Source of the DNA: Maritalea myrionectae DSM 19524
GTDB taxonomy: Bacteria > Pseudomonadota > Alphaproteobacteria > Rhizobiales > Devosiaceae
Assembly (NCBI RefSeq): GCF_000423365.1
Contig: NZ_AUHV01000003.1
Location: 186,001-250,000 of the forward strand
Direction of reading: 5' to 3'
DNA: 64,000 nucleotides
The notes under the pieces are model-generated. The model was given only the letters and a program-made list of their open reading frames with translations, had not been told where the DNA came from and searched no databases. Below, one piece after another: positions 4,392 to 6,910 of this stretch; within the stretch, counting starts at the first letter, position 1, and each line of letters begins with the position of its first letter. The translations under genes and the position numbers were made by a program.

Positions 4392-4946
4392 TTACATGCC
4401 CTCTTTGCCGCGCGAAATTGCGGTGAGGCCCGTGCGAACCACTTCAACAAGGCCCAAAGGCTGCATCAAAGAGATGAATTGCTCGACCTTTGATGGGCGG
4501 CCGGTGATCTCAAAAACAAAACTGTCAATTGACGCATCCACAACATTGGCGCGGAAGGCTTCAGCCAGACGCAATGTTTCCACCCGGTTTTCGCCTTTGC
4601 CTGCCACTTTGATCAGCGCAAGCTCACGCTCCAATGACTCGCCTTCGGCCGTCAAATCATGCACTCGGTGCACTGGAATCAAACGTTCCAACTGCAACTT
4701 GATCTGCGACAGAACTTTTGGCGTCGCGACAGTAACGATCGTGATGCGCGAGCGATGCCGATCGTGCTCTGTTTCTGAAACCGTGAGGCTATCAATGTTA
4801 AACCCACGGGCAGAGAAAAGCCCCACCACCCGGGCGAGAACACCTGGCTCGTTATCAACAAGAACGGTCAATGTGTGACGTTCAACGCTTTGGCTGCGTT
4901 CCAAATCCCAACTTGGCTTAAACAAGGACCTTCCCCTTCTCATCAA
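4392..4946 (-). CDS. ilvH: Acetolactate synthase small (regulatory) subunit
   Basis: Regulatory subunit of acetohydroxyacid synthase; it activates the large subunit and gives valine feedback inhibition. The 184-residue protein has the N-terminal ACT domain (HTLTVLVDNEPGVLARVVGLFSARGFNIDSLTV, about residues 24-56) and a C-terminal ALS_ss_C domain. The start overlaps the end of ilvI by 29 nt, implying coupled translation; the ATG one codon later is equally possible. It ends at the bidirectional terminator. It may equally be named ilvN. Confidence 0.93.
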   Translation of the reverse strand: MMRRGRSLFKPSWDLERSQSVERHTLTVLVDNEPGVLARVVGLFSARGFNIDSLTVSETEHDRHRSRITIVTVATPKVLSQIKLQLERLIPVHRVHDLTAEGESLERELALIKVAGKGENRVETLRLAEAFRANVVDASIDSFVFEITGRPSKVEQFISLMQPLGLVEVVRTGLTAISRGKEGM

Positions 4947-6675
4947 TAATGTTGCCGATATCTGCCGTGTCCGGCAAAATCATCTCGTGGTGCGCCTTGC
5001 CCGATGGAATCATTGGCAAGCAGTTTTCTTCTTTCGTCACCCGGCAATCAAACAGAACAGGCTTATCGATCTCGATCATTTCCATGATCTTGTCGTCCAA
5101 CTCTTTTGGGTCATCACACATGATACCATGCGCGCCGAAGGCCTGCGCCATCATCACAAAGTCTGGCAAGCTTTCAGAATAAGAGCTGGAATAGCGACCA
5201 CCATGCAGCAATTCCTGCCACTGGCGCACCATGCCCATATATTCATTGTTCAAGATAAAGATCTTGATCGGCAAGCCATATTGAACCGCGGTCGACATTT
5301 CCTGCATGGTCATTTGAACGCTGGCTTCGCCTGCAATATCAATCACCAACGCGTCACGGTGCGCCACTTGCACACCAACCGACGCGGGCAGACCATACCC
5401 CATGGTGCCCAAGCCCCCGGAGGTCATCCAACGGTTTGGCTGATTGAAATGGAAGTGCTGCGCGGCCCACATTTGGTGCTGGCCAACCTCGGTGGTGATG
5501 TAAACATCACGATCTTTGGTCAGCTCATACAAACGCTCAATTGCATATTGAGGTTTGATCACGCTATCTGATTTTTCATAGCGCAATGATTTCACAGCGC
5601 GCCATTGATCAATCTGCTGCAACCAGGGCTGAATTTCTTCAGTGCGCGGCGCATTCGTCTTGGCCCGCCACAAGCGCACCATCTCTTCCAACACATGGCC
5701 GCAATCGCCCACAATCGGCAAATCCACCACAATGTTTTTATTGATCGAAGACGGATCAATATCGATGTGGATTTTGCGCGAGTTCGGCGAGAACGCATCA
5801 ATACGCCCCGTGATCCGGTCATCAAAACGGGCGCCAACGCAGATCATCAAATCGCAATCATGCATCGCCATATTGGCTTCGTAAGTGCCGTGCATGCCCA
5901 ACATGCCGAGCCATTGCTCGCCATCTGCTGGATAGGCACCAAGGCCCATCAATGTGGAGGTCACAGGAAAGCCTGTCAGCTCCGCCATTTCACGCAGGCT
6001 TTTGGTGGCATCGTCACCCGAATTGATCACGCCGCCGCCGGTGTAAAACACTGGGCGTTCGGCCTTCAGCATCATATCCACGGCGATTTTGATCGCGTCC
6101 AACTCGCCTTCCATTTGTGGCTTATATGTCGGGTGACTGGAAATATTGGGGTTGGCATAATTGCCCAAGGCAAACTGCACATCCTTAGGAATATCAATCA
6201 CAACCGGCCCCGGCCGCCCCGAGGTCGCCACATAAAAGGCTTCGTGCAAAATGCGCGGCAAATCTTCAACCGACTTCACCAAATAATTGTGCTTGGTGCA
6301 GTTACGGGTAATCCCAACCGTGTCGCATTCCTGAAAGGCATCAGAACCAATCAAGGGTGTGGGCACCTGCCCTGTGATGCAGACCATAGGAATAGAATCG
6401 AGAAGAGCGTCGGTGAGACCTGTCACCGCGTTGGTTGCGCCTGGACCAGAGGTCACCAGCACCACGCCACATTTACCAGTTGAACGGGCATATCCTTCTG
6501 CGGCATGGGTCGCGCCCTGTTCGTGCCGCACAAGAATGTGCTCGACTTTGTCATTTTGGAAAATCGCGTCATATATTGGCAGCACTGCCCCACCGGGATA
6601 GCCGAAAATATGCTCGACCTCCTGATCGACAAGTGCCTGAATGACCATTTCTGCTCCGGTCATTTGCTCAGCCAT
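4918..6675 (-). CDS. ilvI: Acetolactate synthase large (catalytic) subunit
   Basis: ThDP- and FAD-dependent enzyme that condenses two pyruvates, or pyruvate and 2-oxobutyrate, in the first shared step of valine, leucine and isoleucine synthesis. At 585 residues it has normal length. The catalytic Glu is E52 in VRHEQGATHAAEGYARSTG. The ThDP/metal motif reads DIAGEASVQM... followed by ILNNEYMGMVRQWQ, so the usual Asp of the GD-x-(S/G) motif is Glu here. The start has a purine-rich site (GGAGAAAGAAGAG). Expression is probably controlled by the leader peptide and attenuator just upstream. It may equally be named ilvB. Confidence 0.95.
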   Translation of the reverse strand: MAEQMTGAEMVIQALVDQEVEHIFGYPGGAVLPIYDAIFQNDKVEHILVRHEQGATHAAEGYARSTGKCGVVLVTSGPGATNAVTGLTDALLDSIPMVCITGQVPTPLIGSDAFQECDTVGITRNCTKHNYLVKSVEDLPRILHEAFYVATSGRPGPVVIDIPKDVQFALGNYANPNISSHPTYKPQMEGELDAIKIAVDMMLKAERPVFYTGGGVINSGDDATKSLREMAELTGFPVTSTLMGLGAYPADGEQWLGMLGMHGTYEANMAMHDCDLMICVGARFDDRITGRIDAFSPNSRKIHIDIDPSSINKNIVVDLPIVGDCGHVLEEMVRLWRAKTNAPRTEEIQPWLQQIDQWRAVKSLRYEKSDSVIKPQYAIERLYELTKDRDVYITTEVGQHQMWAAQHFHFNQPNRWMTSGGLGTMGYGLPASVGVQVAHRDALVIDIAGEASVQMTMQEMSTAVQYGLPIKIFILNNEYMGMVRQWQELLHGGRYSSSYSESLPDFVMMAQAFGAHGIMCDDPKELDDKIMEMIEIDKPVLFDCRVTKEENCLPMIPSGKAHHEMILPDTADIGNIIDEKGKVLV

Positions 6676-6742
6676 AGCTCTTCTTTCTCCTCAAGCCTTG
6701 TGCAATTTTTTCAAATCGCGCTCATGCCAATTAAATTGGCCA

Positions 6743-6769
6743 TAAAAAAAGGCCCCTTTTGGGACCTTG
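6743..6769 (-). terminator. Attenuator hairpin in the ilv leader
   Basis: On the minus strand, AAGGTCCC pairs with GGGGCCTT (one G-U pair) across a short A-rich loop and is followed by a run of T. It lies between the leader peptide stop (6797) and the ilvI start (6675), where a transcription attenuator belongs. Confidence 0.75.
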
Positions 6770-6796
6770 GCATGCACCGACACTCACGAACCTCAC

Positions 6797-6850
6797 TTAG
6801 ATGTTCGCGCCGCCGGTGCCAATAATCACGAGTACGAGTGCCTGATGCAT
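6797..6850 (-). CDS. ilv leader peptide (branched-chain amino acid attenuation)
   Basis: A 17-residue open frame, MHQALVLVIIGTGGANI, reads on the minus strand with GAGG seven bases before its ATG. Six consecutive residues (LVLVII) are exactly the three end products of the pathway the downstream operon serves. It lies between a candidate promoter and an intrinsic terminator, the standard layout of ribosome-mediated attenuation: stalling at scarce Leu/Val/Ile codons would prevent the terminator from forming. The peptide itself probably has no other function. Such leaders are known for ilv operons in several proteobacteria; the regulatory role here is inferred from sequence. Confidence 0.8.
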   Translation of the reverse strand: MHQALVLVIIGTGGANI

Positions 6851-6881
6851 CGTTTGCCTCAATTAATTTACGTTGGACATA

Positions 6882-6910
6882 TTGGTAGAGCGACTAGATT
6901 CATTGGTCAA
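6882..6910 (-). promoter_or_regulatory. Candidate sigma-70-type promoter of the ilv operon
   Basis: On the minus strand TTGACC (6910-6905) is followed after 17 nt by TACCAA (6887-6882), about 30 nt before the leader peptide ATG. The -35 is good and the -10 is weak. Confidence 0.45.

Follow-up and report, generated by a model that had tools for sequence, protein, structure and literature searches.

How the acetolactate synthase genes ilvI and ilvH of Maritalea myrionectae DSM 19524 are controlled is the question raised by the short region that lies between ilvI and a divergent M20 peptidase gene (7043 onward). Positions refer to the window, which is the whole stretch of 64,000 nucleotides analysed. 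The first-pass annotation had proposed leader-peptide attenuation of ilvIH, based on a candidate promoter, a 17-residue leader with a ribosome-binding site and six consecutive Leu/Val/Ile codons, and an intrinsic terminator before ilvI. All of these parts are read in the sequence (Table 1) and the run is exact. The codons of the leader ORF are ATG CAT CAG GCA CTC GTA CTC GTG ATT ATT GGC ACC GGC GGC GCG AAC ATC TAA, the branched-chain run (Leu Val Leu Val Ile Ile) corresponding to codons 5–10, CTC GTA CTC GTG ATT ATT. The leader stop codon sits within the loop of the 1:2 hairpin. Folding of the leader RNA has a z-score of -3.6 and 1 of 200 shuffled sequences is equally stable. When both strands of the window were surveyed for small ORFs (8–30 codons; ~2,500 in all), nine showed at least 5 Ile/Leu/Val codons in a run near their start, and only the ORF coding MHQALVLVIIGTGGANI and its own TTG-extended version combine such a run with an intrinsic terminator at 60 nt or less. 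The ilvI gene of the window is 96–97% identical to ilvI of Maritalea mobilis and M. mediterranea.

Table 1. Features of the putative ilvIH attenuator region (window coordinates).
Feature	Position	Strand	Details	Basis
Sigma-70-type promoter	6882..6910	-	-35 TTGACC 6910-6905, 17-nt spacer, -10 TACCAA 6887-6882	read in sequence
Shine-Dalgarno GAGG	6857..6860	-	6 nt 5' of leader ATG	sequence
Leader ORF, 17 codons	6797..6850	-	peptide MHQALVLVIIGTGGANI	sequence and relatives
Protector (1:2) hairpin	6774..6819	-	5' arms 6819-6811 and 6809-6803; 3' arms 6791-6785 and 6782-6774	MFE fold and covariation of basal helix
Intrinsic terminator	6749..6768	-	AAGGTCCC-AAAA-GGGGCCTT; stem 6768-6749 of 8 pairs, 5 of them G-C; U tract to ~6744	
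ilvI, acetolactate synthase large subunit (putative controlled gene)	4921..6675	-	ATG at 6675	Pfam TPP_enzyme_N/M/C
ilvH, acetolactate synthase small subunit	4392..4946	-	overlaps the end of ilvI	Pfam ALS_ss_C, ACT_AHAS_ss

The organization is widespread in the order. A leader ORF with an Ile/Leu/Val run is found 5' of ilvI in 102 of 110 Hyphomicrobiales loci, and in 101 of these 102 leaders a terminator lies 29–41 nt past the leader stop, its stem and spacing being conserved. The 101 leaders that carry both ORF and terminator include 91 distinct ones. Conservation of peptide and hairpin in close relatives, named as a check in the first-pass annotation, is found in the five Maritalea genomes whose ilvI upstream region is sequenced and in dozens of other genera, which keep run, hairpin and terminator. 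The run is maintained as LVLVI(I/S/T) in Maritalea, with leader peptides MHQALVLVI(I/S)GTGGANI, MRNVLVLVISGTGGANIS or MRTVLVLVITCTGGANI, and is mostly I-L-V-V in other Hyphomicrobiales (typically MKTALILVVGRRVGKAV in Mesorhizobium, MKNLNVLIVVGRRMGRMV in Agrobacterium and MRALILVVGRRIGNVG in Devosia). Trained on 24 Devosiaceae leaders, a covariance model matches 47 of the 61 relatives' genomes searched, 48 of the 49 matches being directly 5' of ilvI. Within the family it matches 34 of 37 genomes; two of the other three (G004, G011) have assemblies that lack a close ilvI, while the third (G024) has an ilvI preceded by a short upstream sequence only (locus L019, 2,104 bases). One genome (G058) has two close ilvI copies, each with its own leader. 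Across the class, in a set of 29 ilvI loci almost all from outside Hyphomicrobiales, a strict scan whose negatives do not imply absence retrieved leader-plus-terminator candidates at only three.

The promoter columns are conserved in a 12-locus alignment. Comparable -35 and -10 elements precede 86 of the 91 leaders, against five at a control position 150–250 nt upstream. The conserved promoter lies 5' of the ORF, while the first-pass annotation had regarded a transcription start past 6797 as the case against attenuation. In Devosiaceae the -10 element is ~30 nt upstream of the leader ATG, leaving a 5' UTR of ~25 nt that in the Maritalea copy carries the Shine-Dalgarno sequence. In most Rhizobiaceae and Phyllobacteriaceae leaders examined the -10 element ends ~8 nt before the ATG, which suggests that their leader-peptide mRNA, unlike that of Devosiaceae, is leaderless. 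The short gap is seen in the ilvI leaders of Mesorhizobium, Agrobacterium and Rhizobium (e.g., loci L055, L088, L092).

The 1:2 hairpin is supported by covariation. In an alignment of 46 sequences 92.6% of the cells of its basal helix are paired and double changes are found at 7 of 10 pairs; none of 500 shuffles is as good, and slid registers give 22–54% pairing. The peptide tail GRRIG (GRRxG) of relatives corresponds to GTGGA(NI) in Maritalea, the RNA helix being kept by matching changes. Since the tail peptide differs and the RNA still pairs, selection on this part of the leader probably acts on the RNA.

Codon choice in the run is strongly biased. In the 91 leaders Val is coded by GTA in 69% of cases (2.5% in ilvI), Ile by ATT in 75% (20% in ilvI) and Leu by CTC or CTT in 98% (30% in ilvI), while CTG, which accounts for 57% of Leu in ilvI, is absent from the 127 leader Leu codons. 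Against the background of Maritalea's own genes, CTC (10% of Leu) and GTA (7% of Val) are clearly unusual choices; the other codons of the run, ATT (51% of Ile) and GTG (54% of Val), are not rare. Attenuators are known for biased control codons, a preference that has been put down to selective charging (PMC1183508). The position of these codons relative to the hairpin suggests which amino acids are sensed. The stem starts at ORF nt 32, and a ribosome with codon n in its A site was assumed to cover ~12 nt downstream. With this footprint, stalls at Leu5, Val6 and Leu7 would leave the 1:2 stem intact while stalls at Val8, Ile9 and Ile10 would cover 3, 6 and 9 of its 9 basal pairs. The model suggests control by Ile and Val in Maritalea, with little control by Leu. 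Sensing of the charged tRNAs of all three end products, as first proposed, is overstated in this geometry: it would hold for Ile and Val, whose stalls would open the hairpin, but hardly for Leu, both of whose codons come too early. Val control is predicted in most relatives because their run ends in Val.

These data make it very probable that the ilvIH leader is a ribosome-mediated transcription attenuator, in agreement with the initial proposal. Sequence and comparison establish the support for this predicted function: a short ORF, presumably translated, with a biased cluster of end-product codons (LVLVII), a covarying 1:2 hairpin over the end of this ORF, an intrinsic terminator between it and the first structural gene, a promoter, and a fixed place before ilvI. 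From them we infer leader translation, ribosome stalling and terminator readthrough. Transcription would begin ~7 nt past the -10 element, followed by translation of the leader ORF. When charged tRNAs for Ile and Val (perhaps also Leu) are ample, the ribosome would read through, the 1:2 hairpin and the terminator would form, and transcription would end at ~6744 with release of a ~130-nt leader RNA. When they are scarce, the ribosome would stall in the Leu-Val-Leu-Val-Ile-Ile run and mask the hairpin's 5' arm, with RNA polymerase then continuing past the terminator into ilvIH. The usual antiterminator calculation lends no support to the step by which the stalled ribosome would keep the terminator from forming.

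In a classical attenuator the terminator has to face a competing antiterminator. With a ribosome placed in a stall on the final branched-chain codon, the RNA 3' of it was assayed for pairing with the terminator 5' strand relative to shuffled sequences, with nearest-neighbour duplex energies and two footprint settings. Such 2:3 pairing is weaker in the 91 leaders than in shuffles (mean z +0.80; +0.97 in another run), while the E. coli controls thrL, ilvL, trpL, leuL and hisL give scattered z values of -0.46 to -1.98 (n=5) in the same test. Predicted pairing of the terminator 5' strand in the ilvI leaders is unchanged between the states with no ribosome (0.47), with a stalled ribosome (0.49) and with a ribosome at the stop codon (0.48), whereas four of the five E. 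coli controls switch from 0.4–0.6 on stalling to 0.04 or less at the stop. Pairings 2:4, whole-leader:3, whole-leader:4 and downstream:2 are no better than shuffles in the 91 leaders. Two candidates were rejected: an 8-bp perfect complement flanking the Maritalea terminator (CATGCCAA/TTGGCATG, 6720-6777, minus strand) is absent from a close relative (L002), and a GGG-N4-ACC/AGCC motif complementary to the terminator 5' strand recurs with mostly positive z-scores. A weak GG.GC/GU.CC pairing of the hairpin 3' arm with the terminator recurs in several Devosiaceae. The alternative antiterminator pairing that the first-pass annotation had proposed to check by alignment is undetectable in the 91 leaders with the energy model, whose failure to see it is not proof of absence. 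The first-pass description of the control region as complete is overstated, no antiterminator having been located. Two options present themselves: a weak or kinetic antiterminator that the energy calculations miss, or a switch that works in a different way.

The second option would be a stalled ribosome that blocks termination without any competing antiterminator hairpin, for instance by a tertiary or protein contact or by altered pausing of RNA polymerase. The failure of 2:3, 2:4 or downstream pairings to outperform shuffles over 91 leaders speaks in its favour, as does the precedent of actinobacterial ilvB leaders, which have Ile/Val/Leu runs and terminators and are also without a clear mode of regulation (PMC1262725). 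It is weakened by the fact that nearest-neighbour energies can overlook pairings that are weak, mismatched or kinetically trapped, by the Devosiaceae 3' arm pairing mentioned above, and by E. coli controls that individually overlap zero (ilvL, z -0.46). A non-classical switch is considered rather unlikely.

The leader coincides with an RNA family described under another name. At curated cut-offs Rfam identifies no ilv leader in the whole window. The window also holds an alphaproteobacterial (permuted) tmRNA gene (Rfam RF01849, 20079-20439, plus strand) and an RNase P RNA class A gene (RF00010, 61712-62088, minus strand). RF02502 (Atu_C8, 'Rhizobiales sRNA', type 'Gene; sRNA') occupies the same place before ilvI, and its ORF, hairpin and terminator coincide end to end with those of the leader. 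The Maritalea copy aligns at this place to positions 1-122 of the 122-position model with 21.1 bits (E 0.087), below the cut-off of 50 bits, a sub-threshold match that is credited because relatives match at the same place. No Maritalea genome reaches the cut-off while Pelagibacterium and Devosia leaders do, other Devosiaceae genera scoring 58–65 bits at the same place. RF02502 matches the ilvI leaders of 10 of 18 loci tested, at 58–121 bits, and is found (E at most 0.001) in 121 of 136 family genomes and in none of 14 control genomes. End-to-end coincidence with the ilvI leader is seen, among others, in L088 (1802-1921), L103 (1802-1921), L092 (1790-1913) and L055 (1798-1919). By sequence, the ilvI leader element is homologous to RF02502, the Maritalea copy being too divergent for the cut-off. 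The most economical view takes Atu_C8 to be the ilvI leader in its terminated form, and the sRNA type given by Rfam looks incomplete or wrong. A limited literature search retrieved no paper equating the two.

A second RF02502 match is present in about two dozen Devosiaceae genomes. In the four second copies read (L145, L146, L147 and L149, from G209, G219, G020 and G277, respectively), a paralogous leader whose peptide fits M(M/K)I..(N/D).(M/F)VVVG.RMGTAA (MMIENGMVVVGARMGTAA is one example) is followed by hairpin and terminator, with an MFS transporter gene no more than ~35 nt past the terminator in all of them. Amino-acid attenuation of a putative exporter would be logically odd. Should stalling in alphaproteobacterial ilvI leaders lead to readthrough with no classical antiterminator hairpin involved, the Atu_C8 family would form an attenuator class with a mechanism of its own, also recruited to an MFS gene, a speculative and rather improbable extension.

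The Rfam name brings in the view that the terminated leader acts above all in trans, as a small RNA, its place before ilvI being secondary. RF02502 does match the same element from Rhizobiaceae to Devosiaceae with 58–121 bits, and the trpL attenuator RNA of S. meliloti is a published dual-function sRNA (PMC10117765). The Ile/Leu/Val run conserved at the codon level, the fixed position before ilvI, and the separate leaders of the two ilvI copies of G058 point rather to control in cis, and a primarily trans-acting RNA is very improbable; a trans role could exist in addition to cis control. The idea that the short ORF is unrelated, its hydrophobic run fortuitous and the terminator behind it constitutive can be dismissed, since 91 distinct leaders are conserved with extreme codon bias, even if short hydrophobic ORFs do arise by chance, as the nine of the window illustrate.

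The Maritalea leader extends a known attenuator family by a divergent member that is apparently unannotated, and the Rfam 'sRNA' Atu_C8 is indicated to be, at least also, an ilvI attenuator. The 91 aligned leaders provide a strong codon-bias signal, and the undetected antiterminator defines a concrete mechanistic question that can be addressed in genetically tractable rhizobia.

This kind of attenuator is not new. For rhizobia, Vitreschak et al. 2004 are cited as having predicted attenuation of ilvIH, listed for S. meliloti under 'ilvIH cis regulatory' (PMC2573895) and elsewhere under 'ilvB leader peptide' (PMC1273637). Operon, kind of leader and order (Hyphomicrobiales) are common to the rhizobial prediction and the Maritalea copy. 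The rhizobial leaders examined here mostly look leaderless, in contrast to the Devosiaceae leaders with their ~25-nt 5' UTR and, as in Maritalea, a Shine-Dalgarno sequence. The ilvL attenuator of Caulobacter crescentus, which acts on ilvIH/ilvBN (PMC4117421, Fig. 6C), has leader Ile and Val codons, a terminator and downstream acetolactate synthase genes as in Maritalea; it belongs to another order and is likened by architecture. The E. coli leaders ilvL, thrL, trpL, leuL and hisL share with the ilvI leaders a control-codon leader peptide and a terminator before a biosynthetic gene, but they lean to antiterminator pairing in a test where ilvI leaders do not. The ilvBNC leader of Corynebacterium also features an ORF and a terminator before acetolactate synthase genes; this system of a separate phylum, likened by architecture, has a three-hairpin model whose antiterminator is backed by mutational analysis (PMC10272879, PMC11857589). 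The ilvIH leaders of rhizobia and Caulobacter having already been described, the Maritalea copy is a divergent addition to them.
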